From: Phycisphaerae bacterium
Lineage (GTDB): Bacteria; Planctomycetota; Phycisphaerae; Phycisphaerales; UBA1924
Assembly (NCBI GenBank): GCA_030432255.1
Contig: JAUIHS010000025.1
Span: forward strand, 1 to 64,000
DNA length: 64,000 bases
Direction of reading: 5' to 3'
Shown in pieces: positions 34,100 to 52,289 of this stretch. Below the pieces are notes generated by a model that was not told the DNA's origin, searched no databases, and worked only from the letters and a program-made list of their open reading frames with translations. Made by a program: the position numbers and the translations under genes. Numbering within the stretch: the first letter of the stretch is position 1; the number at the start of each line of letters is the position of its first letter.

Positions 34100-35890
34100 T
34101 TGAACAAGAGCGTTGAAGACAACGGGAGTGGTCTGACGGTGATGACGAATCTGAATCCGGAGATCCAGGAACTCATCGAACTCGGCCGCAAGCGCAAGTG
34201 GCTGAGTTACGAGGAATTGAACAACACGCTTCCGGACGAATTCGTCGATCCGGATCGCGTGGATGATGTCCTCATTCGCATCGACGAGTTCAGCATCGAA
34301 CTGGTCGACGAACTGGAGTACAAGGCGCGTCGCTGGCGTGACTCGAAGCGGCTCGGGCTCAAGGTGGACGCGGAGCCTGCGCGGCAGACCGAACTGGCCG
34401 TGGACATCGTGGACCAGGATGACGAGATCAGCGGCGAACTCGATGAGAATGCCCAGGCGGAAGCCGAAGCAGAGGCCGCTGCCAAGCGTATCGATGACCC
34501 CGTCCGCATGTACCTCACGCAGATGGGCACCATCCCGCTGCTGACGCGCGACGAGGAAATCCGCCTCGCGAAGAAGATCGAAACCACGCGCATGATCTTC
34601 CGCCGACGCGTCTTCGAGTCGGACTACGCCGTGGCACAGGCCTCGGAGATCCTTGAGCAGGTGCATCGCGGCGAACTCCCCTTCGACCGAACCATGAAGA
34701 TCTCCACGGCGGAAGAGAACGCCAAGGAGAAGATCGCCAAGCGCATCCCCTACAACCTCGAGACCATCCAGCGGCTGCTGGAGCGCAACCGCGAGGACTG
34801 GGAATTCCTTGAGGACGCCATCGAGGAGGAGGATGAAGCGGTTCAGGCCGAGGTGCGCGAGCGCATCGCGACACGCCGTCGCAAGCTCGCGACGCTGACC
34901 GAGGAGATGAGCCTCCGCACCAGCCGCATCGTGCCGCTTCACCGCAAGCTGCGCTCCATCTCGCAGAAAATGGTGGAGCTGGATCAGGAACTCAAGAAGG
35001 CGGCCCGCTATCCCAACCGCTTCGATCCCGAGGACGTCATGGTCATGCGCGAAGAGCTGGCCGGACTCGGCTCGCTCGTGCTCGAGGATCCCACGGACCT
35101 CGCCGATCGCGTCAAGCGGCTCGACACCGTCTTCTGGGAGTACGAGCAGGCCAAGCGCGATCTCTCGGCGGGCAACCTCCGACTCGTTGTCTCCATCGCC
35201 AAGAAGTACCGCAATCGCGGCCTTCCCTTCCTCGACATCATCCAGGAAGGCAACACCGGCCTCATGCGCGCGGTCGACAAGTATGAATACAAGCGCGGAT
35301 ACAAGTTCTCCACGTACGCCACGTGGTGGATCCGCCAGGCCATCACCCGCGCCATCGCCGATCACGCCCGCACCATTCGCATCCCGGTGCACATGATCGA
35401 AACGATGAGCAAGCTGCGCAACATTCAGAAGATGCTCCTCCAGGAACTCGGGCACGAGCCCACCATCGAGGAACTTGCCGAACGTGCCGGCATGTCGGTC
35501 GCAGAGACCCGCCGCGTCATGAAGATCAGCCGCCACCCGATCTCCCTGGACCGCCCCGTGGGCGAGTCCGAGGACTCGTACTTCGGCGACTTCATCGAGG
35601 ACGAGAAGCAGGAAGCGCCCGCTTCCGTGGCGGCGAGCGACATGCTCAAGAACCGCATCGAATCCGTCCTGAAGACGCTGACGTATCGCGAGCGCGAGAT
35701 CATCAAGCTCCGCTACGGCATCGGCGACGGCTACACCTACACCCTTGAAGAAGTCGGTCGCATCTTCAAGGTGACCCGCGAACGCGTCCGCCAGGTCGAG
35801 GCCAAGGCCATCCGCAAGCTGCAACACCCCGTTCGTGCTCGCAAACTCGCCTGCTTCCTCGACGGCTCGGATATGGACGAACGCAACTGA
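34100..35890 (+). CDS. rpoD: RNA polymerase primary sigma factor RpoD
   Basis: A 596-residue housekeeping sigma-70. Region 1.1 ([23 protein letters not shown]) is present. Region 1.2 has [22 protein letters not shown], followed by a non-conserved insertion. Region 2 has [20 protein letters not shown] and [19 protein letters not shown]. Region 3 has [13 protein letters not shown], and region 4 has [14 protein letters not shown] and the [21 protein letters not shown]. It directs transcription from -35/-10 promoters. The start is shown as TTG at 34100 with AGAAGG just upstream; GTG at 34139 or ATG at 34142 are alternatives. It is co-oriented with dnaG and ended by a strong terminator. Confidence 0.95.
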
Positions 35891-35914
35891 GCCAGCGACT
35901 GAGCCCATCGCAAG

Positions 35915-35953
35915 ACGCCGATCGTCAATGAGACGGTCGGCGTTTCGCTTTTT
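35915..35953 (+). terminator. Intrinsic terminator of rpoD
   Basis: A 12-pair stem (ACGCCGATCGTC and GACGGTCGGCGT, one G:U pair) with a five-base loop AATGA is followed by TTCGCTTTTT. It starts 25 bases after the rpoD stop codon. A possible -10 (TACAAT, 35953-35958) for the downstream sulfotransferase cluster begins at its last T. Confidence 0.9.
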
Positions 35954-36007
35954 ACAATGATCATTCCGGATCACTCGCCCCCTCGCATTCCCGTTCCCCT
36001 CTTCACC

Positions 36008-37531
36008 ATGTCCCAACTCGCCACACAACTCCAGCAGGCGCTCCAGCTTCAGCGCCAGGGTCGCCTCGCTGACGCCGAGCGACTCTATCGGCAGGTCCTG
36101 AAACAGAAGCCGGATCATCCGGATGCCCTGCATCTCCTCGGTGTCCTCATCGCCGATGCCGGGCATCCCGACAAAGCCCTGCCCCTCCTGAAGCGTGCGA
36201 CCGAGGTCTCGCCGCGCCAGAGCGCGTTCTTCTACAACTACGCCAATGCACTCCGGCGCTCCGGTGCGTTGACCGAGGCCGTCGCGGCGTACGAGAAGGC
36301 GATTGCCATTCAGGAGAAGTCGGCCCCGGCGTGGTACGGGCTGGCGCACGCCCGCGAGCAGATGCACGAACTTGATGCCGCGCGTGCCGCGGTCGAGAAG
36401 GCGTTGGCGATCAAGCCGGACATGGTGCTGGCCGAGATCCTGGCGGCAAGAATTGATCTCCGTGATGGTGATGCGGAGTCGGCCCGCTCGCGCCTCGAAG
36501 CCCTCTGCGCCCGCGACCTGCCTGTGGACCTGCGATGCCAGGCGTCCGTGGAACTCGGGCGGGTGCTCGATCGCCTTCAGCGTTACGACGAAGCGTACGC
36601 TGCTTTCGATCAGGGCCAGCGCGCCCAGATGGAACAGTTGGGGCGGAACCAGGGCGACCCCTATTCGCAACTCATTCAGAAGACCGTCGAATGGGTGCGG
36701 ACCCCGGCATTCGCTCAGCGTTCGGAGGCGTCGGCCGCGTCCGGACGCTCACCCATCTTCTTCGTCGGATTTCCCCGCTCCGGGACCACGATGACCGAGC
36801 AGATTCTCGCCGCGCACCCGCAGGTGCGCACCAGCGATGAGCAGCCCGGCATTCACCGCGCGATCATGGCGCTCCCGCCCGCGGCCCGGCAGCAGTACCC
36901 GGCCGTGCTGAACGCGCTGACACCGCCGCAACTGGAGGGACTTCGCCAGGTCTACTGGCGCACGATGGATGCGGGTCCGAACGACACCCTCTACGTTGAC
37001 AAGTTGCCTCTGAACCTCATTCACCTCCCGATGATCCAGTGTCTCTTCCCCGGCACGAAGGTCATCGTGGCATTGCGTGATCCGCGCGACGTGTGCCTGA
37101 GTTGCTTCATGCAGTCTTTCGGCATCAACCAGGCGATGGCCCACTTCCTCCAGTTGGAGAGCACGGTGACCTTCTACCAGCAGGTCATGAGCCTGTTCCT
37201 TGAGATGGAGGATCGGTTGCAGGTACCGGTCCTCCGGGTCCGTTACGAGGACACCGTGGATGACCTGGAGAGCAGCGCTCGTCGACTCCTCGAGTTCCTC
37301 GATCTGCCGTGGGACGACCAGGTCCTCCAGTTCCATGAGGTTGCGAAGACACGCTACGTCTCCACACCCAGCTACGAAGGCGTGATCCAGCCGGTCTATC
37401 GGACGTCGATCGGGCGGTGGCGGAACTACGCTGACCAGTTTGCCGCACACCAGGCACGCCTCGCCCCGTACCTGGCCGCTTTCGGCTACGGGGCTGATGG
37501 CGGGCCGACGCCCGACGGCGCTGCCGTATAA
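36008..37531 (+). CDS. TPR-sulfotransferase 1 of 8
   Basis: A 507-residue protein. Residues ~1-170 are TPR repeats (LATQLQQALQLQRQGRLADA, then LADAERLYRQVLKQKPDHPD). Residues ~245-490 are a PAPS-dependent sulfotransferase: the 5'-phosphosulfate loop is FFVGFPRSGTTMTEQIL near 250, and the 3'-phosphate site is VALRDPRDVCLSCFMQ near 355. Other shared blocks are DKLPLNLIHLP, VRYEDTVDDLESSARRLLEFL and STPSYEGVIQPVYRTSIGRWRNY. It should transfer sulfate from PAPS to an unknown protein or glycan acceptor, with the TPRs for partner binding. The start at 36008 lies just after the rpoD terminator. A TACAAT at 35953 may be the -10 for the whole array. The next paralogue follows after 68 bases. Confidence 0.9.
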   Translation: MSQLATQLQQALQLQRQGRLADAERLYRQVLKQKPDHPDALHLLGVLIADAGHPDKALPLLKRATEVSPRQSAFFYNYANALRRSGALTEAVAAYEKAIAIQEKSAPAWYGLAHAREQMHELDAARAAVEKALAIKPDMVLAEILAARIDLRDGDAESARSRLEALCARDLPVDLRCQASVELGRVLDRLQRYDEAYAAFDQGQRAQMEQLGRNQGDPYSQLIQKTVEWVRTPAFAQRSEASAASGRSPIFFVGFPRSGTTMTEQILAAHPQVRTSDEQPGIHRAIMALPPAARQQYPAVLNALTPPQLEGLRQVYWRTMDAGPNDTLYVDKLPLNLIHLPMIQCLFPGTKVIVALRDPRDVCLSCFMQSFGINQAMAHFLQLESTVTFYQQVMSLFLEMEDRLQVPVLRVRYEDTVDDLESSARRLLEFLDLPWDDQVLQFHEVAKTRYVSTPSYEGVIQPVYRTSIGRWRNYADQFAAHQARLAPYLAAFGYGADGGPTPDGAAV

Positions 37532-37599
37532 TCTCCGATCCGAAGACGTCCGCGAGGGTGTGGGAGCATCTGGTCCGGGGTCGAGAAGAATGTGAGTCC

Positions 37600-39129
37600 A
37601 TGGCGAATCCGCAGGCACAACTTCAACAGGCGGTGGCGCTCCATCGTGCCGGTCAACTGGCACAGGCGGAGGAGTTGTATCGTGCCGCGTTGAAGAAGAT
37701 GCCGGGCAATGCGGACATCCTGAATATGCTCGGCCTCGTTGTCGCCGGTCTCGGACGCACCGAGGAAGGCGCGGGTTGCCTGCAGAAGGCGGTGAAGAAG
37801 AAGCCGTCGGATCCCGGGATCCACTACAACCTCGCCAACCTCCTGCGTGCCACTGGGCGGATGCCTGATGCGGCGGAGAGCTACCGGAAATCGCTTGCCC
37901 TTCGCGAATCCAATCCGGAGGCGTGGTACGGCCTGGCCTGTGCTCTCGAACAGATGCGCGACGTCGATGCCACGCGTGAAGCAGCCGGGCGCGCCCTGGA
38001 GCAGAACCCGCGCCATGCCATGGCTGCTGTCGTCCTGGCACGTGCCGAGCGATCCGCGGGGGACGCGGCAGCCGCGACCGAACGTCTCCGAACGCTCTCG
38101 GCTCGTCAGGACCTCGCGCCCATCGAGCGGACGCACACGCTTGTTGAACTAGGCAAGACTCTGGACCGCCTGGGCGACTACACGGGCGCGTGGGAGGCCT
38201 TCGAGGGTGGGCAGCAGGCTCTGATGGCGACCCCGGAGTTCAATCGCACGCGCCCCGAGATGTTCCGGGCCATGGTTGACGCCTCGATGCACATCATCAC
38301 ACCGGAGCGACTCGCGGAGTGGGGCCGTGAGGAGTGGAATGATGGTCTCCCGGATCCCGTTTACCTCGTGGGATTTCCGCGCTCCGGAACCACCCTCGTC
38401 GAGAACATCCTCGCCGCACATTCGAAGTGCATCACCACCGATGAGCGCCCCTTCACCCAGAACATCATCCGGGCTCTTCCGGGCATGGTGGGGCTCGACT
38501 ATCCCAACGCAGTGGAACTGCTCAATTCAGACCAGATTCGCGTGCTGCGTCGGCAATACTGGGATCAGGTGGAGCAGTTCACCGGTGAGCAGGCGGGCAG
38601 CCGCACGCTCATCGACAAGCAGCCGATGAACCTGGCCTACACCGGCCTGCTGGTCCGGCTCTTCCCGGGCGCGAAGATGATCGTCGTGCGGCGCGATCCG
38701 CGGGATGTCTGCCTCAGTTGCTTCATGCAGGCGTTCACGCCGAACCAGGCCATGTCAAATTTCTGTACGCTCGAGTCCACCGTTGCGCTGTACGACAGGC
38801 TGATGTCATTCTGGACCGGCATCGAATCGAGCGTCCCCCTGCCCAGGCATGAAGTGGTCTACGAGCAGGCGGTGGGGGACCTGGAGGGGACTGCCCGGGG
38901 CCTGATCGGGTTCCTGGGCCTGGATTGGGAGCCTGATGTCCTGCGCTTCAACGAGCGCGTGGGAGATCGTTACATTCAGACACCAAGCTACGAAGCGGTG
39001 TCCCGACCCGTATACACCAGCGCCATCGGACGGTGGCGTCATTACGCTGAGGCACTGGAACCACACCGTGAGGTGCTGGACCGCCATGCCGCGCGAGAAG
39101 AGACGAACGAGGAACGAGGAAGTTCATGA
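37600..39129 (+). CDS. TPR-sulfotransferase 2 of 8
   Basis: A 509-residue paralogue of the preceding gene. N-terminal TPRs (QAQLQQAVALHRAGQLAQAEE) precede a sulfotransferase domain with VYLVGFPRSGTTLVENIL near residue 253 and VVRRDPRDVCLSCFMQAF near 362; the acceptor-side block reads DKQPMNLAYTG. The conserved tail SRPVYTSAIGRWRHYAEAL is present. The start at 37600 (MANPQAQL) is chosen over an in-frame GTG-type start at 37558 because the TPR begins directly after it. The stop overlaps the next start (ATGA), so translation is coupled. Confidence 0.9.
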   Translation: MANPQAQLQQAVALHRAGQLAQAEELYRAALKKMPGNADILNMLGLVVAGLGRTEEGAGCLQKAVKKKPSDPGIHYNLANLLRATGRMPDAAESYRKSLALRESNPEAWYGLACALEQMRDVDATREAAGRALEQNPRHAMAAVVLARAERSAGDAAAATERLRTLSARQDLAPIERTHTLVELGKTLDRLGDYTGAWEAFEGGQQALMATPEFNRTRPEMFRAMVDASMHIITPERLAEWGREEWNDGLPDPVYLVGFPRSGTTLVENILAAHSKCITTDERPFTQNIIRALPGMVGLDYPNAVELLNSDQIRVLRRQYWDQVEQFTGEQAGSRTLIDKQPMNLAYTGLLVRLFPGAKMIVVRRDPRDVCLSCFMQAFTPNQAMSNFCTLESTVALYDRLMSFWTGIESSVPLPRHEVVYEQAVGDLEGTARGLIGFLGLDWEPDVLRFNERVGDRYIQTPSYEAVSRPVYTSAIGRWRHYAEALEPHREVLDRHAAREETNEERGSS

Positions 39130-41252
39130 GCAGTTTTTCGACAGCATTGGCCAATGCCTACCGAGCCCAGCAGGAAGGGCAGCTTGACGCAGCGGAGAGC
39201 CAGTACCGGGAGATCCTTTCCAGCGATCCGGGCAACGGCGACGCCCATCACCTCCTGGGCGTCCTGGAGACGCAGCGCGGTCGACACGATGCCGCCATCG
39301 AGTCCATTCAGCGCGCCATCGAGATCCAGGAAGGCAACCCTGCGTATCACTACAGTCTCGGCCGCGCCCAGGCACTCGCCGAGCAACTCGGCCCCGCCGA
39401 AGCCTCCCTCCGGCGTTCGATCGAGATTCATGAACCGCTGGCGCCCGCGCATCTCGAACTCGGTGTCGTCCTCGACCGGCAGGGTCGGGGCGACGAGGCA
39501 CTTGCCTGTTTCGATCGCGCCTTGCGCATCAAGCCCGATTATGCGATGGCGTACTTCAACGCCGCCAATGTGCTTCGTCGCCGCGACATGCGTGATGCCG
39601 CCATTGAATCGTACAACAAGGCGATCGAACTCGATCCCGGCCACACCGAGGCGCGCTACAACCTGGCGCTCTGTCTGCGCGAAGCATCGCGCGGCCCCGC
39701 AAGCGTTGAGCAGTTCCGCCACGTGGTGCAGGCTCGACCGGACTGGGCACATGCTCGCGGCAACCTTGCCGTGACACTGATGGACATCGGAGAGGGCAAG
39801 GAAGCGCTGGAAGTGATCGAGAACGCGGTGAATGATGCTCCGGACGACCACCGCCTGCGCAACAACTACGGCAACCTCCTGATCGCGGTCGGGCGCTATG
39901 ACGAGGCGCTGGAGCAGTTCCGCAAGTCGGTCGAGATCGCGCCGGATTACGGAATTGCGTACAACGGCCTCGGTTCCGCACTGCGCTCCGTTCGCAATCT
40001 AGACGAGGCCATCCGCTCCTTTGAGCGGGCCGTGGAACTCGCGCCGGACTCGGCGCCGCTCCGCTTCAGCCTTGCGGATGCGTACGACCGTGTGCATCGC
40101 ACCGATGATGCCCGGCCGCATCTCCAGCGCGCGCTGGAACTCAATCCGAGTCACGCGATGGCACTGCTGCTCAAGGCCCGCATTGAACGACATGACGGCC
40201 ACCTCGATGAGGCGAAGACCATTCTCCAGGGCTTGATGGAGACTGTTGATGACTCATATCGCTCCGTCGTTGCGACGCAGATGGGGCACACGCTGGAAGA
40301 CCTCGGCGAATACGATGCCGCCTTCGAGGCGTTCAGCGACGCGCAGCGCACCATCCGGGAGTCTGACGAATTCAAGCAGTTCCCACAGGACATGTACCCG
40401 TCGACCGTGGCAGCCTGCCGCGAGCGGATCACGGACGACCTGGTCGCCACGTGGGAGGAGGAACCGCCCGCTGACGGTGTGACTTCTCCGATCTTCTTCG
40501 TGGGCTTCCCGCGTTCGGGAACCACGCTGATGGAGCAGGTGTTCGATGCGCATCCGGCGCTGCGCACCACGGGCGAGCGCCCGGTCCTCAACCGGCTCAT
40601 CACGGAGGTCAAGGAGCTGACGGGCGGGTATCGCGGCTATCCCGAGGATCTCGACGACCTGACCGACGACGACGTTGCAGAGTTGCGACGGCTCTACTTC
40701 GAGCAGTCGGAGGCACTGCTTGGATCTGCGGATCGGGGCCTGCGCATTGTTGACAAGCAGCCGCTGAACATCGTCCACCTGGGGGTGGTTCGGCGTGTCT
40801 TTCCGGAAGCGCCGGTGGTTGTCGCGCTGCGCGATCCGCGGGCGGTGTGCTGGAGCTGTTTCATCCAGGAGTTCCAGCTCAACCAGGCGATGATCCACTT
40901 CTCTGACCTTGAAACCACGGCCGATCTTTACGCTGGGGTCATGGATCTCTGGCTGTATTACCGCAGCACGCTTGGCATCAACTACCTTGAGTATCGGTAC
41001 GAGGACCTGGTGGAGAATATGGAGGCGACGGCGCGGAAGATCCTTGAGTTCGCCGGCGTGCCGTGGGATGACTCAGTGCTCAAGTACCACGAGAAGGCGA
41101 AGGAATCCGTCGTCACAACGCCCAGTTTCCGCGACGTCACGAAGCCGGTGTACAGCCGCGCCGTGGATCGCTGGCGTCATTACGAATCGCACCTTCAGGC
41201 CGTCACCGAGCGCGTTGCTCCCTTCCTGCGTGAATTTGGCTACGAGGATTGA
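39126..41252 (+). CDS. TPR-sulfotransferase 3 of 8 (longest, extended TPR array)
   Basis: A 708-residue paralogue with the longest TPR array, about ten or more repeats over residues 1-390 (for example YNKAIELDPGHTEARYNLAL and YDEALEQFRKSVEIAPDYG). The sulfotransferase domain has IFFVGFPRSGTTLMEQVF near 455 and VALRDPRAVCWSCFIQEF near 565, a variant of the RDPRDVCLSC signature in the other early paralogues (Asp to Ala, Leu to Trp). The PAPS-contacting Arg and Ser of the motif are kept, so activity is still plausible. It starts in an ATGA overlap with gene 2 and leads directly into gene 4. Confidence 0.9.
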   Translation: MSSFSTALANAYRAQQEGQLDAAESQYREILSSDPGNGDAHHLLGVLETQRGRHDAAIESIQRAIEIQEGNPAYHYSLGRAQALAEQLGPAEASLRRSIEIHEPLAPAHLELGVVLDRQGRGDEALACFDRALRIKPDYAMAYFNAANVLRRRDMRDAAIESYNKAIELDPGHTEARYNLALCLREASRGPASVEQFRHVVQARPDWAHARGNLAVTLMDIGEGKEALEVIENAVNDAPDDHRLRNNYGNLLIAVGRYDEALEQFRKSVEIAPDYGIAYNGLGSALRSVRNLDEAIRSFERAVELAPDSAPLRFSLADAYDRVHRTDDARPHLQRALELNPSHAMALLLKARIERHDGHLDEAKTILQGLMETVDDSYRSVVATQMGHTLEDLGEYDAAFEAFSDAQRTIRESDEFKQFPQDMYPSTVAACRERITDDLVATWEEEPPADGVTSPIFFVGFPRSGTTLMEQVFDAHPALRTTGERPVLNRLITEVKELTGGYRGYPEDLDDLTDDDVAELRRLYFEQSEALLGSADRGLRIVDKQPLNIVHLGVVRRVFPEAPVVVALRDPRAVCWSCFIQEFQLNQAMIHFSDLETTADLYAGVMDLWLYYRSTLGINYLEYRYEDLVENMEATARKILEFAGVPWDDSVLKYHEKAKESVVTTPSFRDVTKPVYSRAVDRWRHYESHLQAVTERVAPFLREFGYED

Positions 41253-41254
41253 TC

Positions 41255-42991
41255 GTGCCGGCTCTGCCCGATCTGCTCCAGGCCGTGGAAGTGGCCCTTC
41301 AACAGGGGCAGGTGCGCACTGCAGTGGACACCGCCCGGCATGCCACCCGGGCGCATCCCGATGCACCGACGGCATGGCGGGCGCTCGGCCGTGTCCTCCT
41401 TTCGAAAGGGCTGGATGTCCCCGGCGCCGTTGAGGCTCTTCAGCGCGCCGACGAACTTGACCCGGGGCACGCACCGACGGTGATCAACCTCGCCATCGCT
41501 CTCCGTACGGTGGGCCGGATACCCGAGGCGATCCGCCGACTGACTGTTCTGCTCGAAGCGCAGCCCACGCACGCCCACGCGCTGTTCACGTTCGGGAACC
41601 TCCAGCGGGCTTCGGGAAACGATGTCGAGGCAGCTCGCGCCTACCAGCGGGCACTTGAGAGCAGGCCGGGGCACGCACCGACTCTCCACAACCTCGGGAA
41701 CACGCTTGTCGATCTGCGCCGGCTCGATGACGCTGAAGTCGTCTTCAATCAGGTCCTCGACCTGGAGAGGACACCAGCCGCGGTGATGGCGCTCGCTCGA
41801 CTGTGCCACCGGCAACGCAAGGCGGAACAGGCAAGGCAACTCGCAAATGAAGCGCTCGAACTGCAACCGTGGGTTGGAGGACCGCTCTTGACAGCGCCCC
41901 ATGCGCCCCAAGCCGAACTCCTGCTTGCCACGCTTGATCGCGCTGATCGCGATTACGAGGCGGCCCTCGTACGTCTCGACCGAGTCATCACATCCGGAGC
42001 ACCGGACCCCATCAAGGGCAGCGCACTCGTTCAGAAGGGCCACGTGCTCGATCGGATGTCTCGCCATGACGAGGCGTTTGCAGCGTTTCAGGAGGGTCAG
42101 AACCGCCTGGCCACACAACAGTCCGAAGTGGACGAGCGCTCTCGGAGCGGGCGAGCGCGGATCCGCCGGGACACGCAGACGATCGCCGCAATGACGCTGC
42201 CATCCATCACAGTCGAACCCATGCCTCGTCCCCCCGTCTTCATTGTCGGCTTTCCCCGCTCGGGGACGACGCTGCTCGAACAACTCTTCGGCGCTCATCC
42301 GCATTTCGTGACCAGCGATGAACGGCCCTTCCTCCAGCAGGCACTCGCACGGCTCGATGTCATATCCGGTACGCAGCAGCCCTGGCCCGAACTGCTGCAG
42401 CAACTCGATGCATCGACAGTCGCCGCGCTTCGTGCCGCATATGAGGACATTTGCATCGAAAGCCTCGGTGACGAGGCCAGGGAACGACGAGTCGTTGACA
42501 AGCAGCCGTTGAACATCACGTACGCCGCTGCGATCGATCGCATCTTCCCCGATGCCCGCATCATCGTTGCCCTGCGCGATCCGCGCGATGTGTGTCTCAG
42601 TTGTTTCTTCCAGGACTTCGGCGCGCGGGCAGCCGGGCACTTCTACCACCTCGAATCGACCGTTGATCTGTACGACGCGGTCATGGGACACTGGCTCGAC
42701 GTGCGGGAGCGTCTCAGTGTCCCCTGGATGGAAGTCCGATATGAAGATGTGACCAGCGACCTGGAGTCCACCGCCCGCCGCCTCATCGACTTCGTCGGTG
42801 CGCCCTGGGCGGAGACCGTGCTGGACTTCGGAGCTCACGCGGCGGCCCGCGCTGTGTCGACGCCGAGTTATCACGACGTGACACAGGGCGTGTATCGCCG
42901 CTCAGTGGCCCGCTGGCGCCAATATGAGACGCACATCTCGTCGTTCATGCCGCAACTCGAGCCCTACGTGGAGGCGTTCGGTGGCGTATGA
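41255..42991 (+). CDS. TPR-sulfotransferase 4 of 8
   Basis: A 578-residue paralogue. TPRs fill residues 1-300, and the sulfotransferase domain has VFIVGFPRSGTTLLEQLF near 328 and VALRDPRDVCLSCFFQDF near 438, with DKQPLNITYA between them. The GTG at 41255 has GAGG seven bases upstream, two bases after the previous stop; a TTG at 41249 overlapping that stop is the alternative. The next gene starts 76 bases later, one of the larger gaps in the array, where an internal promoter is possible but not visible. Confidence 0.88.
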   Translation: MPALPDLLQAVEVALQQGQVRTAVDTARHATRAHPDAPTAWRALGRVLLSKGLDVPGAVEALQRADELDPGHAPTVINLAIALRTVGRIPEAIRRLTVLLEAQPTHAHALFTFGNLQRASGNDVEAARAYQRALESRPGHAPTLHNLGNTLVDLRRLDDAEVVFNQVLDLERTPAAVMALARLCHRQRKAEQARQLANEALELQPWVGGPLLTAPHAPQAELLLATLDRADRDYEAALVRLDRVITSGAPDPIKGSALVQKGHVLDRMSRHDEAFAAFQEGQNRLATQQSEVDERSRSGRARIRRDTQTIAAMTLPSITVEPMPRPPVFIVGFPRSGTTLLEQLFGAHPHFVTSDERPFLQQALARLDVISGTQQPWPELLQQLDASTVAALRAAYEDICIESLGDEARERRVVDKQPLNITYAAAIDRIFPDARIIVALRDPRDVCLSCFFQDFGARAAGHFYHLESTVDLYDAVMGHWLDVRERLSVPWMEVRYEDVTSDLESTARRLIDFVGAPWAETVLDFGAHAAARAVSTPSYHDVTQGVYRRSVARWRQYETHISSFMPQLEPYVEAFGGV

Positions 42992-43067
42992 TGGTAGTCT
43001 TGGAGACCGGCAGTGCGCCCCTTGAAGTGGGGTGTCCGTACCCCGTTGACAGAGGCGTAGGCAGGAA

Positions 43068-45095
43068 ATGACGAGCATAGCTGAAACGCTGTCCCTCGCG
43101 GTCAGCAATCACAAGGCGGGTAATCTCAAGGAGGCGGAAGTCCTCTACAAGCAGGTGCTCACCCAGAATCCGCAGAATGCCAACGCGCTCCATCTGCTCG
43201 GCGTTCTGAGCGCTCAGTCGGGGCGCCCCGAGGACTCGATCGGCTACATCCGACGAGCGATCGAGATCCGCGATGACCAGGCCGCCTTCCACTACAACCT
43301 CGCCAACGCGCTCCGGAAGACCGGCGAACTCGAATCCGCCGCGGAAGCCTATCAGCGTGGCCTCGAACTGGAACCTGAGCATGCCCAGTCGTGGTTTGAT
43401 CTCGCCGCCGTCCTGCGTGAGCTCGGCCGGACGGAGGAGGCGATCGCGGCATATCAGAAGGACCTGGCCCTCCGGCCGAAGCACGCTGAGGCGTGCAACA
43501 ACATCGGCATGCTCCTGTTCGACGCGGGGCAGGCCAAGCGTGGTGTGACTTTCATCCAGCGTGCCGTCGAGATCCGACCTGACTTCGGCAAGGCGCATGC
43601 CAATCTCGGGAAAGTGTCACTCGATCTCGGGCATGCCAATGTCGCAGAGATGCATCTGCGTCGGGCCATCACGCTGCTCCCGGATGATCCGATCGTGAAC
43701 AACAACCTCGGCAACGCGCTCTCCCTTCAGGCCAAGTCCGGGGAGGCCATTGAGCACTACCGCCGGGCGTTGGAGATCGATCCCGAGTATGCCGCGTGTT
43801 ACGTGAACCTCGCGAACACCTACCGCACGGCGAGGCGTCACGAAGATGCGCTCCAGCACTACGCCAACGCTCTCGCCCTCGACGACTCCATCGCGCAGGC
43901 GCACTACGGACGTGCTGCCATCCTGGAGCGGCTCTCGGATCTCGAGGGAGCCATCGAATCGCTCGATCGCGCTCTTGAGATCGAACCGGACATGAGCGGG
44001 GCGGTGCTCCTGAAGGGGCGTCTGCTTCGTCGAAGCGAGCATTACGACGACGCATGCGCGTATCTTTCCGCAGCGATCGAGAATCCGGCCATGAAGCGGG
44101 TCGCCGGCTCCCTGCAGGTCGAACTCGGACACGTTCTGGATCGCATGGGGCGCTACGACGATGCTTTCGGGGCGTTCTCTTCAGGGCAGCAGCTTCTGTC
44201 GGAGCGGCCTGCGGCACAGCACTTCGACTGGACTCGATACCTGAGCACGATTTCCCGCTCGCAGAAGTGGATTGAAGAGGGCGGCCCGACGGAGTGGGAG
44301 ACGTCCTGGGATGACGGCATCCAGGTGCCCGTCTTCTTCGTCGGCTTCCCGCGCTCCGGGACCACGCTCACCGAGCAGATTCTCGACTCGCATCCCAACC
44401 TCGTGGCGACAGACGAAGCGCCGCTGATCTCCAACCTGATGCAGCGCGTGCCGGACCTGCTGGGAGAGAGACCGCCCTTTCCCGAGGGTGTCGGGCAACT
44501 GCAGCGGGAGCACGTGCTCCAACTTCGGCGTGAGTACATGGACGAGGCGGCTCAGTTCGTCGGTGCCGACGCGTTACAGGAGTGTCGCCTGGTCGACAAG
44601 CTGCCCCTCAATCTCGTCAACCTGCCCATCATCCGCCGCATCTTTCCGGAGAGCAGGCTGATCTGCGCTCTCCGCGATCCGCGCGATGTCTGCCTCAGTT
44701 GCCTGATGCAGGAATTCCGCCCCAACATCGCGATGGTCCATTTCTACTCCATCGAGACCACGGCGCGGCTGTATGCGAACGTCATGAACCTCTGGCTGCA
44801 CTACCGCACCAAGCTCGGGATGCCGGCGATCGAGAGTCGCTACGAGGATCTGGTAGCCGACTACGAGGCATCGGCCCGCCGTCTCCTCGAATTCCTCGGC
44901 GAGCCGTGGGATGATGCAGTCCTCGAGTACACCAATCGCGCCCGCGAAAAGGTCGTGTCCACACCGAGTTACGCGGCCGTCAGCCAGCCCATCTACACTT
45001 CATCGACGAAGCGCTGGGAGCGGTACGAGAAGCACATCACGAAGGTGCAGCCGCTGCTTCAGCCCTTCATCGAAGAATTCGGATACGAGTCCTGA
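43068..45095 (+). CDS. TPR-sulfotransferase 5 of 8
   Basis: A 675-residue paralogue with a long TPR array (ETLSLAVSNHKAGNLKEAEV at the start, then eight to nine repeats to about residue 370). The sulfotransferase domain has VFFVGFPRSGTTLTEQIL near 421 and CALRDPRDVCLSCLMQEF near 533, with DKLPLNLVNLP between. The C-terminus includes STPSYAAVSQPIYTSSTKRWERYEK. The ATG is preceded by AGGAA. Gene 6 follows after 33 bases. It belongs to the group of paralogues with the RDPRDVCLSC signature. Confidence 0.9.
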   Translation: MTSIAETLSLAVSNHKAGNLKEAEVLYKQVLTQNPQNANALHLLGVLSAQSGRPEDSIGYIRRAIEIRDDQAAFHYNLANALRKTGELESAAEAYQRGLELEPEHAQSWFDLAAVLRELGRTEEAIAAYQKDLALRPKHAEACNNIGMLLFDAGQAKRGVTFIQRAVEIRPDFGKAHANLGKVSLDLGHANVAEMHLRRAITLLPDDPIVNNNLGNALSLQAKSGEAIEHYRRALEIDPEYAACYVNLANTYRTARRHEDALQHYANALALDDSIAQAHYGRAAILERLSDLEGAIESLDRALEIEPDMSGAVLLKGRLLRRSEHYDDACAYLSAAIENPAMKRVAGSLQVELGHVLDRMGRYDDAFGAFSSGQQLLSERPAAQHFDWTRYLSTISRSQKWIEEGGPTEWETSWDDGIQVPVFFVGFPRSGTTLTEQILDSHPNLVATDEAPLISNLMQRVPDLLGERPPFPEGVGQLQREHVLQLRREYMDEAAQFVGADALQECRLVDKLPLNLVNLPIIRRIFPESRLICALRDPRDVCLSCLMQEFRPNIAMVHFYSIETTARLYANVMNLWLHYRTKLGMPAIESRYEDLVADYEASARRLLEFLGEPWDDAVLEYTNRAREKVVSTPSYAAVSQPIYTSSTKRWERYEKHITKVQPLLQPFIEEFGYES

Positions 45096-45128
45096 TCCCC
45101 GACCGCTCGCTGCGGAGAAAGTCTGATC

Positions 45129-46949
45129 ATGTCCACCATCGACAACGTCCTCCAGCTGGCCCTCCAGTCGCTACGGTCCGGTGACCTGTTGCAGGCAGAG
45201 ACGCTGTACATGCAGATCCTCGAAGAGGATCCCAACCACGCCGACGCGCTCGGCATGCTCGCACTGGTCTACGGGCAGCAGCAGAAGATGGACTCCGCAA
45301 TCCTCTGCCTGCGTCGGGCCGTGCGCAACAAGCCCTCCGAACCGATGTTCCACTACCACCTCGGGCACGCGCTCGCCGACACCGGTGAGGACGCGGAGGC
45401 TGTCGAGGCGTTCCGGATGGCAGCATCGCTTGCGCCGACACAGCACCAGCCCGTTTTCATGCTGGGACGCCTGTGCATGCGCACCAAGCGATTCGCCGAT
45501 GCGGTTCAGGCTTACGAGAAGACGATTGAACTGCAGCCGGATCTCGTGCCGGCCCACACCAATCTCGGGAATGCATTCCGTGCGCTCGGTCGGCATGACG
45601 ACGCCATCCAGGCCTATGAGCGGGCCCTGCAATTGCAGCCCGGTAACGCCGAGATCGTCTGCAACATCGGCAACATCCACAAGGATGAAGGCCGTTTCGA
45701 AGAAGCCATCGAGCGATACCGCGCCGCCATTGCCATGCAGCCTGATCTGGCCATCGCCCACTCCAATCTGGCCCACGTGCTTGAGCGCACCTTCCAGTCC
45801 GAGGAGGCGCGGGCTGCCGGCGACCGGGCGCTCCAGATCGATCCCGACCATGTCGGCGCCCACCGGCTGCTGGCTCGTATCGAGGCCAGTGACGGGGAGT
45901 TCGACAAGGCCGAGGCGCGACTCGCCGCAATCCTCAACACCGAGACGCTGACCGAACCAATCGCGCACGCGTGCATCGAGTACGGGAACATCCTTGATCG
46001 CCTCGATCGCTCCAATGAGGCCTTCCAGGCCGTCAGCCGAGGACAGCAGAACATCGTGCCGCAGAACAGCCCGACCGTCGCTCAGATGGCCGCATTCGAG
46101 GCGATGCTTGAACGCTGCCGGATGCAGCCGGCCGACGACGTGATTGCATCATGGGGCGACGCCAGCGGTGATGAGCGGTCGCGGAGGCTCTGCTTCCTGC
46201 TTGGCTTCCCGCGCTCCGGCACCACGCTGACCGAGCAGATTCTCGGTTCCCATCCCAACATCGTGTCGAGTGACGAGCGCCCCATTCTCCGCCCGGTGCT
46301 CGACAAACTCACCGAGATCACCGGGCAGCAGGACTACCCGGCCAGCATTGAAGCCATCGACGATGCCGCCGCCGCGACCCTGCGCGAGACGTACTGGAGT
46401 GCCGCGGAAGACCTCATCGGGTCGGAAGTGCAGAGCAGCCGACTTGTCGACAAGCAGCCCTACAACACATCCCACATGCCGCTGCTCCGCAGGCTCTTTC
46501 CCGAGGCACACTTCATCGTCGCGCTCCGCGACCCCCGGGATGCGTGTCTCAGTCTCTTCTTCCAGGATGTGCGTGCCAACCAGGGCATGCTGCACTATCC
46601 CACGCTTGACGCCGTCGTATCCGTGTACAGCCGCATGATGTCCTGCTACCTCCGCTACCGCGCCGTGCCGGGGTGGACACTGAAGGAGTTCAAGTACGAG
46701 GACCTTGTGGCAGACAAGGAAGCCGTTACCAGGGGCCTCCTCGAGTTCATCGGAGAGCCGTGGGACGATCAGGTGATGGATCACACCAGGACCGCCCGGA
46801 CCAGGCATACTTCCACGATCAACTATGCAGAAGTCGCTCAGCCGGTCTTCAGCCGATCCGTGCAGAGATGGAGGCGCTACGAAGGCCAGTTCTCACACCT
46901 TCAGCCATCCCTCCTCCCGTTCGTGGAAGCATTCAATTACGAGGCGTAA
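45129..46949 (+). CDS. TPR-sulfotransferase 6 of 8
   Basis: A 606-residue paralogue. TPRs cover residues 1-290, and the sulfotransferase domain has CFLLGFPRSGTTLTEQIL near 354 and VALRDPRDACLSLFFQDV near 464. The acceptor-side block is DKQPYNTSHMP rather than DKxPLN, and the C-terminal block is STINYAEVAQPVFSRSVQRW. These changes place it in a second subfamily with genes 7 and 8. It is separated from gene 7 by three bases, so co-translation is likely. Confidence 0.9.
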   Translation: MSTIDNVLQLALQSLRSGDLLQAETLYMQILEEDPNHADALGMLALVYGQQQKMDSAILCLRRAVRNKPSEPMFHYHLGHALADTGEDAEAVEAFRMAASLAPTQHQPVFMLGRLCMRTKRFADAVQAYEKTIELQPDLVPAHTNLGNAFRALGRHDDAIQAYERALQLQPGNAEIVCNIGNIHKDEGRFEEAIERYRAAIAMQPDLAIAHSNLAHVLERTFQSEEARAAGDRALQIDPDHVGAHRLLARIEASDGEFDKAEARLAAILNTETLTEPIAHACIEYGNILDRLDRSNEAFQAVSRGQQNIVPQNSPTVAQMAAFEAMLERCRMQPADDVIASWGDASGDERSRRLCFLLGFPRSGTTLTEQILGSHPNIVSSDERPILRPVLDKLTEITGQQDYPASIEAIDDAAAATLRETYWSAAEDLIGSEVQSSRLVDKQPYNTSHMPLLRRLFPEAHFIVALRDPRDACLSLFFQDVRANQGMLHYPTLDAVVSVYSRMMSCYLRYRAVPGWTLKEFKYEDLVADKEAVTRGLLEFIGEPWDDQVMDHTRTARTRHTSTINYAEVAQPVFSRSVQRWRRYEGQFSHLQPSLLPFVEAFNYEA

Positions 46950-46952
46950 GCC

Positions 46953-48767
46953 GTGGATCAGCCCTCTGAAGCCTTCGTCGCCGCAATGGTCGCACTGCGC
47001 GAGGGAAGGCTGGATGATGCCGAATCACAACTGGTCGCCCTTCGCGATGCCGGAGACCACGGCGCCACGATTCACAACGCGCTCGCGCAGGTGGCGCAGG
47101 CCCGCGGCGACCTGCCCTCCACACTCGACCATCTCCGGCATGCTGCCGCCGCCGATGCGAACGATGCCCGCCCGCTCGTACAGATTGCGCAGATCGAGCG
47201 AAGCCGAGGCGACATTGCCGCGGCGCTCGACGCCTTCCGGCAGGCTGTCACACGACAGCCGAGGCAACTCCCCCCGCTGCGCATGCTTGCTGCACTGGCG
47301 TACGAGACTGGCCACTTCGCCGAAGCACTGTCGTGCAGCGAACGCATGATCGAACTTCGGCCCCGTGGCTGGGAAGCGCACCTTCGACGCGGCGGTGCAC
47401 TCCAGGCCCTCATGCGCCCGGCCGAAGCGGAGCAGGCATATCGGGATGCGATGGCGCTGAAGCCGGGGGCGCCGGAACCGATGCTCAATCTCGGAACACT
47501 CGCTCAGGATCGCGGCGACATGCAGGCCGCGATCGACTGGTATCGCAAGGCCATTGAAGCGGAACCGAAGAGTGCCGCGGCACGCATCAATCTTGCCCAT
47601 GCGCTCGAGCGGTTGGAGCAGTTCGAAGAAGCGGAGCGGGAAGCTCGTATTGCGGCCGACCTGAATCCGAACCACTTTCTTCCGCCGATTCTGATCGCGC
47701 GTTTGCAGGCGGATCGGGAGGGCTTCGACGAAGCGCGGGGCACGATCGAAGGCGCCCTCGCCCGGACATCTGACGATGAGGCGCGCGGTCACCTGCTGAT
47801 GAATCTCGGCCTGATTCTCGATCGCATCGATCGCCCTGACGAGGCCATTCGCTGTTTCGCCGATGGCCAGCGACTGCTGACACCCGAAGGGAGTCCCGGG
47901 CACATCGCTCTGCGCGACTATCTGTCGCGCCTCGAAGAGGTGCGTTACTGGCCGACGGCCGAGGTGGTTGAGGCCTGGGCGACACCGGAGGCGGCGCCGG
48001 ACGATCCGGTCTTCCTGATCGGGTTCCCACGTTCCGGAACGACGCTCGTGGAGCAGATTCTCGCATCCCATTCCGCGTTCGAAACCAGTGATGAGAAGCA
48101 GATACTTGCTGCAACCATCGCGAATGCCCGGCAGATGTACCCCGGGATGTCACTGCCGGACTGCATCGAACATCTGAACGAGGAGCAGGTTGCCCGACTG
48201 CGTGCGGCTTATCACGAGCACGCGCGCGCGCTGGTGGGCGACCACGTGGTTGGTCAGCGCCTCATCGATAAGCAACCCTTCAACTCCCCATGGCTTGCGG
48301 TGATCCGTCGCCTCTTTCCACATGCACCGATCATCATTGCCCATCGCGATCCGCGCGATGCCTGCCTGAGCCTCTTCATGCAGGACATTCGTCCGCATGC
48401 CGACAGTCTGCATGTCCCGACCATGCAGGATGTGCTGAATGTCTACGAATCCATGATGGACGGCCTGCTCCGCAACCAGGACTTACTGGGGCTGAACTGC
48501 ATCACCTACCGGTACGAAGAGGTGGTTGCCGATACTGCAGGCGAAGCGCGTCGGTTGCTCGAATTCCTCGGAGAGGCGTGGGAAGATGGCGTGCTTCATT
48601 ATCACGAGCATGCTCGACAGGCGCGCCGGTCATCTATCAACATTCACGCTGTCACGCGACCCATCTACAAACGTGCTGTTCGCCGTTGGGAACGGTACCG
48701 CGCGTGGTTCGAGCCGTGGCAAACCCGCCTCGCACCATACGTTGAAGCGCTGGGATACACGCCATGA
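46953..48767 (+). CDS. TPR-sulfotransferase 7 of 8
   Basis: A 604-residue paralogue starting with GTG three bases after the previous stop. TPRs cover residues 1-300 (FVAAMVALREGRLDDAESQL onward). The sulfotransferase domain has VFLIGFPRSGTTLVEQIL near 352, IAHRDPRDACLSLFMQDI near 462 and DKQPFNSPWLA between. The signature RDPRDACLSLF links it with genes 6 and 8. The stop overlaps the start of gene 8 by four bases (ATGA). Confidence 0.9.
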   Translation: MDQPSEAFVAAMVALREGRLDDAESQLVALRDAGDHGATIHNALAQVAQARGDLPSTLDHLRHAAAADANDARPLVQIAQIERSRGDIAAALDAFRQAVTRQPRQLPPLRMLAALAYETGHFAEALSCSERMIELRPRGWEAHLRRGGALQALMRPAEAEQAYRDAMALKPGAPEPMLNLGTLAQDRGDMQAAIDWYRKAIEAEPKSAAARINLAHALERLEQFEEAEREARIAADLNPNHFLPPILIARLQADREGFDEARGTIEGALARTSDDEARGHLLMNLGLILDRIDRPDEAIRCFADGQRLLTPEGSPGHIALRDYLSRLEEVRYWPTAEVVEAWATPEAAPDDPVFLIGFPRSGTTLVEQILASHSAFETSDEKQILAATIANARQMYPGMSLPDCIEHLNEEQVARLRAAYHEHARALVGDHVVGQRLIDKQPFNSPWLAVIRRLFPHAPIIIAHRDPRDACLSLFMQDIRPHADSLHVPTMQDVLNVYESMMDGLLRNQDLLGLNCITYRYEEVVADTAGEARRLLEFLGEAWEDGVLHYHEHARQARRSSINIHAVTRPIYKRAVRRWERYRAWFEPWQTRLAPYVEALGYTP

Positions 48768-50566
48768 CTGCACCTCCGATCCTCCAGCAGGCACGCGCGC
48801 TTCAGATGGAAGGAAAGATCGACGAGGCCGCTGCCGCATACGAGCAGTACCTCGCTGAGAATCCTGATGACGTCCGGACCATGGATCTCCTCGGCCAGAT
48901 GTTCGCCGCCGCCGAGCGCATCGGAGACGCCGAAGTGGTGTACCGGCGGGCCATGCAGATCGATGAACGGAACGACATGATCTGCTTCCGGTTCGCGATG
49001 CTTCAGGCCGGCGCCGGACACAAGGCCGAGGCCATCGACCTGTTTCGGCGCGCGCTCGAGATTCGACCAGGTCGGCTCCAGCCGCTTCGCCATCTCGGCG
49101 CACTCTGTTTCGAACTTGGCCGCTTTGATGAAGCCCTCCCCGTTATGCGCGAGATCGTCGAACTGCGCCCGAGAGCCGCAGATGCGCACACCAACCTCGC
49201 GCGAACACTCCTCGCACTCCGAGCCTTCGATGAAGCCGAAGCCGCTGCTCTCACCGCGACCGAACTGCGCGACTCCAGCGTGGATGCGTGGATCACGCTC
49301 GGACTCGCACGCATGGAGCAGGGCAACTTCGAAGGGGCGGAAGCCGGACTGCGCAGTGCCGCGGCGGTCGCCCCCGGCGACCCGCGCCCGCAGACCCATC
49401 TCGCGCGTCTCTTTGAACGATGGCGCCGATTTGAAGACGCCACCCGCGCAGCGGAAGCCGCTGTTGCCATCGCTCCCGCGATCGGAGCACGCCGGGTCCT
49501 CGGCCGACTCCACATGCACGTCGGCAACCCGGAGGCCGCCCTCGAAGTCCAGAGCGACATGCTTGCCGACAATCCGGGTGAGGAGGAGCGAGGCCACGTC
49601 CTGATCGAACAGGGGCGCACGCTCGACCGGCTGGGCCGACACGAGGAGGCCATGAACGCCTTCCTCTCGGGCCAGGCGTTACTCGCACCCCCGCAGAGTG
49701 CAGTCCACGAACAAATCGCAAGCTTCATGGCCATGCTCGAGCGCTGTCGGGACTGGCCGGAGTCACCTGTCAACTGGCCCGGCGATCCGGCATCGGGCGC
49801 CCGGCCCGCACCGGTCTTCCTCGTCGGCTTCCCGAGATCAGGAACCACGCTCACAGAGCAACTTCTGGGAGCACATCCGGACTTCGTCACCAGCGATGAA
49901 CTGCCTCTCCTCCATGTGGTGGTGCAGGAGGTCAGCCGCCGCGGCCCGTACCCACAGGCCGTCGGCGATCTCAGTGAGGCGGATGTCGCGGCCTTATGTG
50001 ACAGTTACTGGAACGAGGCAAAACGTTTCTTGCCGACCCTGCGTGCGACGGGTACTCGCCTGGTGGACAAGCAGCCGTACAACACGCCCCACCTGGCGGT
50101 CATCCGCCGGCTCTTTCCGGATGCCCGGGTGGTGGTTGTGCTTCGAGATCCTCGTGACGCCTGCCTCAGCCTCCTCATGCAGGATGTGGCCCCCGGACAG
50201 CGGATGATCAGCTATCCAACGCTGGAGACCGCCGCGGCGACCTACGAGCGGATGATGGGCGGTTACCTGCGTCAGCGGGATCACCTTGGTCTGGCATGCC
50301 ACGAGGTTCGCTACGAGGACCTGATCGCCGATCTGGAGGCGCATGCGCGTCGCCTGATCGATTTCGTAGGCTCGTCGTGGACAGATGAAGTCCTCACGTG
50401 GCAGGAGCACGCGGCGACCCGCCGGTCGCAGATCAACACCCACGCGGTCGCGTCCGGTGTCTACACGCGGTCGCGTGAGCGATGGCGTCGCTATGCCTCG
50501 GCGATCGCCCCGATCCAGGAGCAGCTCCGGCCCTTCGTGGAGGCCTTCGGATACGAGGCCGAATAA
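48764..50566 (+). CDS. TPR-sulfotransferase 8 of 8
   Basis: A 600-residue paralogue, the last of the array. TPRs fill residues 1-290 (ILQQARALQMEGKIDEAAAA onward). The sulfotransferase domain shows VFLVGFPRSGTTLTEQLL near 350 and VVLRDPRDACLSLLMQDV near 458, with DKQPYNTPHLA between and HAVASGVYTRSRERWRRYA near the end. It is coupled to gene 7 by ATGA. It is followed by 118 bases that carry a promoter for pckA; no terminator hairpin is obvious there. Confidence 0.9.
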   Translation: MTAPPILQQARALQMEGKIDEAAAAYEQYLAENPDDVRTMDLLGQMFAAAERIGDAEVVYRRAMQIDERNDMICFRFAMLQAGAGHKAEAIDLFRRALEIRPGRLQPLRHLGALCFELGRFDEALPVMREIVELRPRAADAHTNLARTLLALRAFDEAEAAALTATELRDSSVDAWITLGLARMEQGNFEGAEAGLRSAAAVAPGDPRPQTHLARLFERWRRFEDATRAAEAAVAIAPAIGARRVLGRLHMHVGNPEAALEVQSDMLADNPGEEERGHVLIEQGRTLDRLGRHEEAMNAFLSGQALLAPPQSAVHEQIASFMAMLERCRDWPESPVNWPGDPASGARPAPVFLVGFPRSGTTLTEQLLGAHPDFVTSDELPLLHVVVQEVSRRGPYPQAVGDLSEADVAALCDSYWNEAKRFLPTLRATGTRLVDKQPYNTPHLAVIRRLFPDARVVVVLRDPRDACLSLLMQDVAPGQRMISYPTLETAAATYERMMGGYLRQRDHLGLACHEVRYEDLIADLEAHARRLIDFVGSSWTDEVLTWQEHAATRRSQINTHAVASGVYTRSRERWRRYASAIAPIQEQLRPFVEAFGYEAE

Positions 50567-50684: not shown

Positions 50685-52289
50685 ATGGCCTCGATGCTCA
50701 CCAAGTCAGCGCTGGACCTGACGCGTGACGGCGTTCTTCGAAATCTTCCGACCTCACGGCTTGTCGAGAGGGCCCTCGAAAGAGGCGAGGGTGTCCTGGG
50801 CAACAACGGCACGCTGATCGTCAAGACTGGCGATCGCACTGGCCGGAGTCCCAAGGACAAGTACCTTGAAGACACCCCGGACATCCACGACAACATCTGG
50901 TGGGGCAAGGTGAACCAGCCCATCTCCAGTGAGGGCTTCGATGTCCTCGAGGAGATCGCGCTCCAGTACATGGCATCCCTCGAGACCGTCTACGCCTTCG
51001 ACGGCTACGTCGGTGCCGATCCCAAGTACCGCCTCCGTTCGCGCACCTTCACCGAACTCGCCTGGCACTCTCTCTTCGTCAAGACTCTCTTCATCGAACC
51101 GGAGACATCTGAGCTCGATGGATTTGCTCCCGACTGGACCATCATCAACTGTGGTTGCCGCAAGCTCACCGAAGAGGAAGCCGGCCGAGCCGGCGTCGCC
51201 CCCACGGGTATCTGCGTCGCGCAGTCGCTCACACGCAAGGTCGTTCTCATCTTCGGAACTGAGTACGCGGGTGAGATGAAGAAGTCGCTCTTCTTTGCAA
51301 TGAACTATGACATGCCCGATGTCTCCGTCTTTCCGATGCACTGTTCCAGCAATGTCGGTGTTGACGATGCGAACAATGTCGCTCTGTTCTTCGGACTCTC
51401 GGGAACGGGCAAAACCACCCTTTCCGCCGACCCGGATCGCGCGCTCATCGGTGACGATGAACATGGCTGGTCAGCCGATGGCATCTTCAACTTCGAAGGC
51501 GGCTGCTATGCCAAGTGCATTCGGTTGAGCGAGGAGGGTGAGCCGCAGATCTGGAACGCGATCCGCTTCGGTTCCGTGCTGGAGAACGTTGTCTTCGATG
51601 AGGCCAGCCGCGAAGTTGACTACGACGACGGCTCCATCACCGAGAACACCCGCGTGACCTACCCGGTCGAGTTCATTCCCCACGCCGTGCACCCGTCGGT
51701 GGGAACGCATCCGAAGAACGTCATCTTCCTGACCGCGGATGCCTTTGGTGTCCTGCCTCCGGTGGCGCGCCTGAGTGATGAGCAGGCGATGTACTACTTC
51801 ATCAACGGGTACACATCGAAACTCGCCGGGACCGAGGAGGGCGTGACTGAGCCGCAGCCCAACTTCAGCCCCTGCTTCGGCGGTCCCTTCCTGCCGCGCG
51901 AGCCGCGTGTGTATGCGCGGATGCTCGCCGAACGGATCCGGAAGCATGATGCGCATGTCTGGTTGCTCAACACCGGCTGGTCGGGCGGCGCCTACGGCAC
52001 CGGCAGTCGGTTCAGCCTGAAGTGGACGCGCGCGATGGTGACGGCGATCCTCGATGGCTCTCTCGCGGACGTTGAGTTTGAGACGGATCCTGTCTTCGGC
52101 CTCAGCATCCCGACCTCCATTCCGAACTCCGATGTCCCGGCGGACGTCCTCCAGCCCCGGAAGGCATGGAAGGACCAGAATGCCTATGACGTGAAGGCCC
52201 GCGACCTCGCATCACGTTTCCGCAAGAACGACAAGGGCTTCGAAATGGCCGATGAGGTTCGCGCCGCCGGACCCAAAGTGACCGACTGA
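50685..52289 (+). CDS. pckA: Phosphoenolpyruvate carboxykinase (ATP)
   Basis: A 534-residue ATP-type PEPCK that converts oxaloacetate and ATP to phosphoenolpyruvate, CO2 and ADP, the first committed step of gluconeogenesis. Visible motifs are RTGRSPKDKY near residue 52, MHCSSNVG near 218, the kinase-1a ATP loop FFGLSGTGKTTLSADP near 239, the metal-binding DDEHGWS near 260, FEGGCYAK near 275 and NTRVTYP near 320. The length is typical. The ATG at 50685 has GAGGAG nine bases upstream; the frame extends further upstream only as gene-8 overlap. A terminator follows. Confidence 0.96.
   Translation: MASMLTKSALDLTRDGVLRNLPTSRLVERALERGEGVLGNNGTLIVKTGDRTGRSPKDKYLEDTPDIHDNIWWGKVNQPISSEGFDVLEEIALQYMASLETVYAFDGYVGADPKYRLRSRTFTELAWHSLFVKTLFIEPETSELDGFAPDWTIINCGCRKLTEEEAGRAGVAPTGICVAQSLTRKVVLIFGTEYAGEMKKSLFFAMNYDMPDVSVFPMHCSSNVGVDDANNVALFFGLSGTGKTTLSADPDRALIGDDEHGWSADGIFNFEGGCYAKCIRLSEEGEPQIWNAIRFGSVLENVVFDEASREVDYDDGSITENTRVTYPVEFIPHAVHPSVGTHPKNVIFLTADAFGVLPPVARLSDEQAMYYFINGYTSKLAGTEEGVTEPQPNFSPCFGGPFLPREPRVYARMLAERIRKHDAHVWLLNTGWSGGAYGTGSRFSLKWTRAMVTAILDGSLADVEFETDPVFGLSIPTSIPNSDVPADVLQPRKAWKDQNAYDVKARDLASRFRKNDKGFEMADEVRAAGPKVTD

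Follow-up and report, generated by a model that had tools for sequence, protein, structure and literature searches.

An array of eight TPR-sulfotransferase genes with TPST-like catalytic domains in a Phycisphaerae bacterium

Introduction

Sulfotransferases that carry an arm of tetratricopeptide repeats (TPRs) are a known architecture. The combination of TPR and Sulfotransfer_1 appears among the architectures given in a 2005 paper (PMC554113), and the NCBI entry "tetratricopeptide repeat-containing sulfotransferase family protein", with members in many Proteobacteria and on plasmids, describes the same arrangement. In the open-licence PMC literature, we found no functional study of TPR-sulfotransferases. 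Here, we describe eight consecutive genes of this type, located on the + strand at positions 36008-50566 of a 64,000-nucleotide stretch of DNA (hereafter the window) from a Phycisphaerae bacterium (Planctomycetota; Phycisphaerales; GenBank assembly GCA_030432255.1, contig JAUIHS010000025.1, positions 1 to 64,000). The family annotation and the architecture are already known; what is new is the eight-gene array, its mixed ancestry as judged from sequence, the kinship to tyrosylprotein sulfotransferases (TPSTs) measured on the array, and its tie to adenosine 5'-phosphosulfate (APS) kinase in a genome without a detected reductase.

By sequence and by catalytic fold, the closest solved relatives are the metazoan TPST1 and TPST2 (PDB 5wri, 5wrj, 3ap1, and 8w5z), which have the same Arg, Glu, Lys, and 3'-phosphate-binding (3'-PB) Ser. 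Metazoan TPSTs have a Golgi membrane anchor, whereas the array enzymes have a TPR superhelix in that place. The array enzymes are also bacterial, are probably cytosolic, and lack the substrate arginines of TPST2, and for them activity on tyrosine is only predicted. Within Bacteria, RaxST of Xanthomonas is a TPST for RaxX. It is TPST-like and, as one article states (PMC9372746), works in the cytoplasm ahead of export; a second article describes its link to its own substrate and exporter, and that description mentions no TPR part (PMC6637879). Going by these descriptions, the array enzymes are set apart from RaxST by their TPR arms, their many copies, and the lack of a linked substrate. In O-GlcNAc transferase (OGT) and SPINDLY, a catalytic domain for the modification of intracellular proteins is likewise fused to a TPR superhelix, although its chemistry is unrelated to that of the array.

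Results

The array comprises eight consecutive + strand open reading frames (ORFs), each encoding N-terminal TPRs followed by a Sulfotransfer_3 domain. All eight proteins match the Pfam family Sulfotransfer_3 above cut-off (E 3.4e-37 to 1.2e-33), with alignments that cover essentially the whole profile, and the N-terminal part of each also matches several TPR families. The genes are gene 1 (36008-37531; 507 aa), gene 2 (37600-39129; 509 aa), gene 3 (39126-41252; 708 aa, with the longest TPR arm), gene 4 (41249-42991; 580 aa, from a TTG start), gene 5 (43068-45095; 675 aa), gene 6 (45129-46949; 606 aa, the protein that was modelled), gene 7 (46953-48767; 604 aa), and gene 8 (48764-50566; 600 aa). 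From gene 1 to gene 8, the junctions are a gap of 68 bases, two overlaps of 4, gaps of 76, 33, and 3, and a final overlap of 4; the overlap between genes 3 and 4 assumes the TTG start and becomes a gap of 2 with the alternative GTG at 41255. The motif GFPRSGTT is exact in all eight proteins, and RDPRD in seven, gene 3 having RDPRA. No gene for PAPS (3'-phosphoadenosine 5'-phosphosulfate) synthesis, sulfatase, or glycosyltransferase lies among the eight. An earlier sequence-only reading of this DNA had claimed eight full-length, paralogous, PAPS-type genes in a row with these motifs, junctions of 4-base overlaps or short gaps (here 3-76 bases), and no such accessory gene inside the array; the ORFs and Pfam matches bear this out. 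In searches against NCBIfam, no sulfotransferase family was matched above its curated cut-off; what came up were TPR cross-matches and weak hits to NoeE, a model of the nodulation sulfotransferase type.

We find that the catalytic domain is TPST-like in both sequence and predicted fold. When a profile built from the eight domains was compared with the PDB, TPSTs took all of the first seven places among distinct sequences, with E values from 6.3e-28 to 6.7e-25. CurM followed at 1.2e-9, and cytosolic sulfotransferases (SULTs) scored 5e-5 or weaker. In the structural model of gene 6 (predicted local distance difference test, 95.3; predicted template modelling score, 0.90), residues 348-606 match human TPST1 (5wrj) with a Z score of 21.4 over 245 aligned residues at 3.0 Å. 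Furthermore, an alignment of 58 TPR-sulfotransferases has the 5'-phosphosulfate-binding (PSB) Arg, the Glu base, and the 3'-PB Ser in all 58 sequences, and the TPST Lys in 57. The invariant Glu lies between the two PAPS motifs and is aligned with the TPST Glu, the position held by His in SULTs. The Arg, the Ser, and the Glu or His base are reported to be essential across sulfotransferases (PMC6637879). PAPS-dependent chemistry is thus predicted for the array enzymes.

In the gene 6 model, the N-terminal arm is a TPR superhelix fused to the catalytic domain. The top Foldseek match is the TPR domain of OGT, and in the structural alignment model residues 6-492 match this domain (1w3b) at a Z score of 23.6 (307 residues, 5.3 Å). 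There is no Golgi-type membrane anchor in the array proteins: the N-terminal parts are TPRs in all eight, and helices begin at residue 3 in the gene 6 model.

The eight copies are old, divergent paralogues of mixed ancestry, judging from their sequences. Their catalytic domains share 38-51% identity (mean 45%), and their TPR parts only 25-40% (mean 33%). This greater divergence of the arms is consistent with the varied acceptors that had been suggested for the array. In a tree of 54 rows (54 of the 114 rows scoring ≥255, from 193 rows in all, with 12 proteobacterial and myxococcal rows picked by hand), the eight array domains need six label changes. None of 200 bootstrap trees unites them, and forcing them into one clade costs 48.6 log-likelihood units and is rejected (approximately unbiased test, P = 0.023). 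Together with the low identity, these results lead us to reject a single recent tandem expansion of all eight. Genes 6-8, by contrast with the eight as a whole, form an exclusive clade (support 100/99), and local expansion appears limited to these three. The tandem expansion proposed by the sequence-only reading therefore stands for genes 6-8 and fails for the array as a unit. Because many deep forks are unresolved, any placement of genes 1-5 is provisional. A separate, larger tree comprised 170 of 184 domain rows, after 14 identical or contained rows were dropped.

Genes 6-8 (45129-50566) also share a signature near the active site, where SxIN replaces the usual TPSY-like motif; a change of acceptor is possible. 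It includes a position at which 55 of the 58 aligned relatives have Ser. Only genes 6-8 have SxIN at that site among 193 domains. Two other rows match the pattern at a site further on, and there is one chance match elsewhere.

The array belongs to a much larger complement. Outside it, the genome encodes 17 further proteins with both TPR and sulfotransferase domains, for a total of 25, and six of the 17 lie in two arrays of three (L001 and L002). Genes beside the copies outside the array are mostly unrelated, for example cinA, mnmG, and an mscS channel gene next to solo copies, and this neighbourhood search indicated no acceptor within the genome. Short sulfotransferase genes that lack TPRs are grouped, on the two strands, at another locus (L013; G000:C110:130000-149900, 12752-16237).

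Comparison with other genomes covered the fetched loci, among the matches listed. Because our home-made gene caller mis-called some loci (e.g., L026, L163, L166, L193, and L197), a six-frame sulfotransferase search was added. Family members stand alone or in arrays of two, three, or four genes, the two larger sizes repeatedly, and one relative has five copies within ~10 kb; eight are found here only. The eight-gene array is not a chance arrangement, as no other same-strand array in the loci scanned exceeds four genes. In two genomes (G101 and G049), window-like copies are scattered, single or paired, and a four-gene array in another (G067) forms its own clade with copies from G108. Conservation of the order rpoD-array-pckA, for which the sequence-only reading had proposed a comparison, was not seen: no sulfotransferase match lies downstream of rpoD in six relatives with at least 4.6 kb of sequence there (G001, G006, G008, G009, G012, and G021; G007 and G015 were left out because of contig ends). 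In G006, a single contig carries rpoD and pckA 10.5 kb from each other, and no sulfotransferase match lies in the interval.

Two kinds of neighbour were seen around copies in other loci. Of 80 named loci, 12 encode a TonB-dependent-receptor-like protein no more than three genes away from a TPR-sulfotransferase (L031, L037, L048, L053, L055, L060, L062, L064, L065, L068, L074, and L102; one of these proteins, in L055, was Pfam-checked). Such neighbours hint at outer-membrane or exported acceptors. In Methylococcales, TPR-sulfotransferases occur near a putative secreted protein family (L039, L051, L063, L085, and L099), of which the one member checked had no Pfam match. These proteins are possible acceptors.

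The genome appears equipped to make PAPS and to spend it on sulfation. It has one ATP sulfurylase gene (sat) and one APS kinase gene (cysC). The next two genes after cysC, in the same orientation, encode a CysQ-like protein of the Inositol_P family and a CitMHS/TrkA_C permease. There was no match to PF01507 (the PAPS/APS reductase family) in this genome, while all 14 control genomes were matched; as the assembly is 94% complete, this absence is likely rather than certain. PF01507 covers both PAPS/APS reductases and CysD. Because no PF01507 gene was found, sulfation is likely to be the main use of PAPS. At another locus (L015; G000:C26:76000-93000, 5112-13946), ATP sulfurylase, a short sulfotransferase, and glycosyltransferases make up a candidate sulfated-polysaccharide locus; in contrast to the array type, the sulfotransferase beside sat is TPR-less and sits among the glycosyltransferases. 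For sulfatases (PF00884), the genome gave a single solid match, which is few for a planctomycete.

TPR-sulfotransferases and cysC occur together. Among the matches listed, 85 of 120 family genomes have cysC and 69 have a TPR-sulfotransferase; cysC is present in 66 of those 69 and in 19 of the 51 others (Fisher test, P = 1.1e-12). The association persists with one genome per genus (39 of 40 versus 15 of 34; P = 1.3e-7), where 39 genomes have both, 1 the sulfotransferase only, 15 cysC only, and 19 neither. A hand count of the 85 cysC genomes found the sulfotransferase at a similar rate with PF01507 (17 of 22) and without it (49 of 63). Gene order agrees in places: sat, cysC, and two TPR-sulfotransferase genes are neighbours in G004, and a window-like TPR-sulfotransferase gene precedes cysC by 160 bases on the same strand in G101.

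The array is flanked upstream by dnaG and rpoD (sigma-70; 34142-35890, + strand) and downstream by pckA (ATP-type phosphoenolpyruvate carboxykinase; 50694-52289, + strand), and neither it nor its flanking genes in the window form a biosynthetic cluster. A strong intrinsic terminator on the + strand (35913-35945; a 14-pair stem with a T-rich tail, fold -27.3 kcal/mol, z -5.9) separates it from dnaG-rpoD; the scan overall was no richer in terminators than shuffled sequence (11 versus 9.0), and this call rests on the strength of the stem. Beyond it, the next strong terminator on the + strand is at 52320; the sites that the scan gives in between, within genes 1 and 5, are weak, with stems of five pairs. 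Thus, the array may be a single transcription unit that starts after the rpoD terminator. TACAAT at 35953-35958 (+ strand), read by eye, is a possible -10 box before gene 1, although it lacks a -35 partner and is absent from the output of the promoter scan. Further downstream, the window has a BatA/VWA gene and then two large genes, encoding 773 and 1291 aa, for which Pfam gave no match (53196-61518).

Discussion

We lean, with modest confidence, towards reading the array as a set of cytosolic, TPR-guided, TPST-like protein sulfotransferases that draw on a PAPS supply kept mainly for sulfation. The sequences and the model show the gene structure, the domains, the kinship to TPST, the conserved catalytic residues, the gene content, and the co-occurrence with cysC; from there we infer protein acceptors, tyrosine as the residue, the TPR arm as selector, co-transcription, and cytosolic action. 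The array would encode eight cytosolic protein (or peptide) sulfotransferases, in which the TPST-type domain would move the sulfo group from PAPS to an acceptor hydroxyl, with the Glu as general base. The N-terminal superhelix may pick the acceptor protein, by analogy with the TPR arm of OGT, which picks its targets, and, with their arms diverged, the eight enzymes could each act as a writer for acceptors of its own. PAPS would be supplied by Sat and CysC, encoded elsewhere in the genome, and the by-product 3'-phosphoadenosine 5'-phosphate (PAP) would be cleared by the CysQ-like phosphatase. The sequence-only reading had gone further and suggested one dedicated pathway. The sulfation-oriented metabolism of the genome (cysC, the CysQ-like gene, the permease, sat, and no PF01507 match) supports the sulfation part of that suggestion. 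A single pathway is too strong a claim, since the 17 further TPR-sulfotransferase genes are scattered, mostly beside unrelated genes, and look more like separate writers.

Several observations weigh against protein sulfation. No acceptor was seen, and the data do not favour tyrosine over other hydroxyls. The arginines with which TPST2 binds acidic residues around the acceptor tyrosine (R101 and R105) are not kept: the place of R101 is Pro in 34 of 58 sequences, with no Arg among its six commonest residues, and that of R105 is Arg in only 7 of 58. Since the catalytic and PAPS-binding residues are kept and these arginines are not, TPST-like chemistry with a different acceptor recognition is expected. 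The Ser kept in 55 of 58 sequences, aligned with Ser285 of TPST2, is replaced in genes 6-8. The TPR match is generic, as MamA and designed consensus TPRs score as high as OGT. In OGT-like proteins, an Asn ladder lines the TPR groove. Of 58 repeats located by our home-made repeat finder, 20 have Asn at position 6 (3.7% Asn overall); Asn at this position is also common in TPRs at large. As for the association with cysC, kinship was controlled by taking one genome per genus only, and three genomes (G020, G126, and G132) have TPR-sulfotransferases without a cysC match. Finally, in G067 a GT4-type glycosyltransferase gene comes after the four-gene array, together with a second gene that resembles glycosyltransferases weakly, as a glycan role would predict.

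Such a role is the alternative that survives best, although we consider it unlikely. The enzymes would sulfate envelope or secreted polysaccharides or glycolipids, and the partners of their TPR arms would be glycosyltransferases or membrane complexes, not acceptor proteins. Sulfated glycans are part of planctomycete life, and within this genome a Polysacc_synt_2 gene lies two small ORFs beyond a three-gene array (L001), which adds to the neighbours in G067. Yet no glycosyltransferase gene is in or adjoining the eight-gene array, and the catalytic domain is nearest to TPST, by sequence and fold, rather than to carbohydrate sulfotransferases. Where a sulfotransferase of this genome does sit among glycosyltransferases, beside sat, it is TPR-less, and the solo TPR-sulfotransferase genes adjoin mostly the unrelated genes named above.

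It seems improbable that the eight genes are just redundant paralogues that chance has preserved, with no distinct acceptor for each gene. The family is indeed widespread (at least 554 stretches encoding relatives in one scan, and 240 plasmid records), and shorter arrays recur. However, none of the eight proteins is truncated, and all have kept their PAPS-binding and catalytic residues although they are only 38-51% identical, which argues for a long-kept function. Still less probable is the sulfation of small molecules such as phenols or secondary metabolites, as many Sulfotransfer_1 enzymes carry out and as the rank of the polyketide sulfotransferase CurM directly after TPST might suggest, given that SULT-type matches are far weaker (5e-5 or worse), that long TPR arms have no evident role for small acceptors, and that no biosynthetic cluster surrounds the array.

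Protein sulfation by TPR-guided enzymes has a wider form, which we put forward tentatively. Phycisphaerales might run a large intracellular protein-sulfation system, with 25 TPR-guided, TPST-like writers in one genome, eight of them in one operon, and with PAPS kept for sulfation alone, as a sulfo counterpart of O-GlcNAc signalling or of the maturation of envelope proteins or of ribosomally synthesized and post-translationally modified peptides. If the TPR-fused branch does sulfate proteins, bacterial protein sulfation would be far commoner, and the acceptors would be best sought in genomes like this one, which has 25 writers and a single solid match to sulfatases. Whether bacteria broadly sulfate proteins would then become a question for mass spectrometry of cultured Phycisphaerales or Methylomonas.

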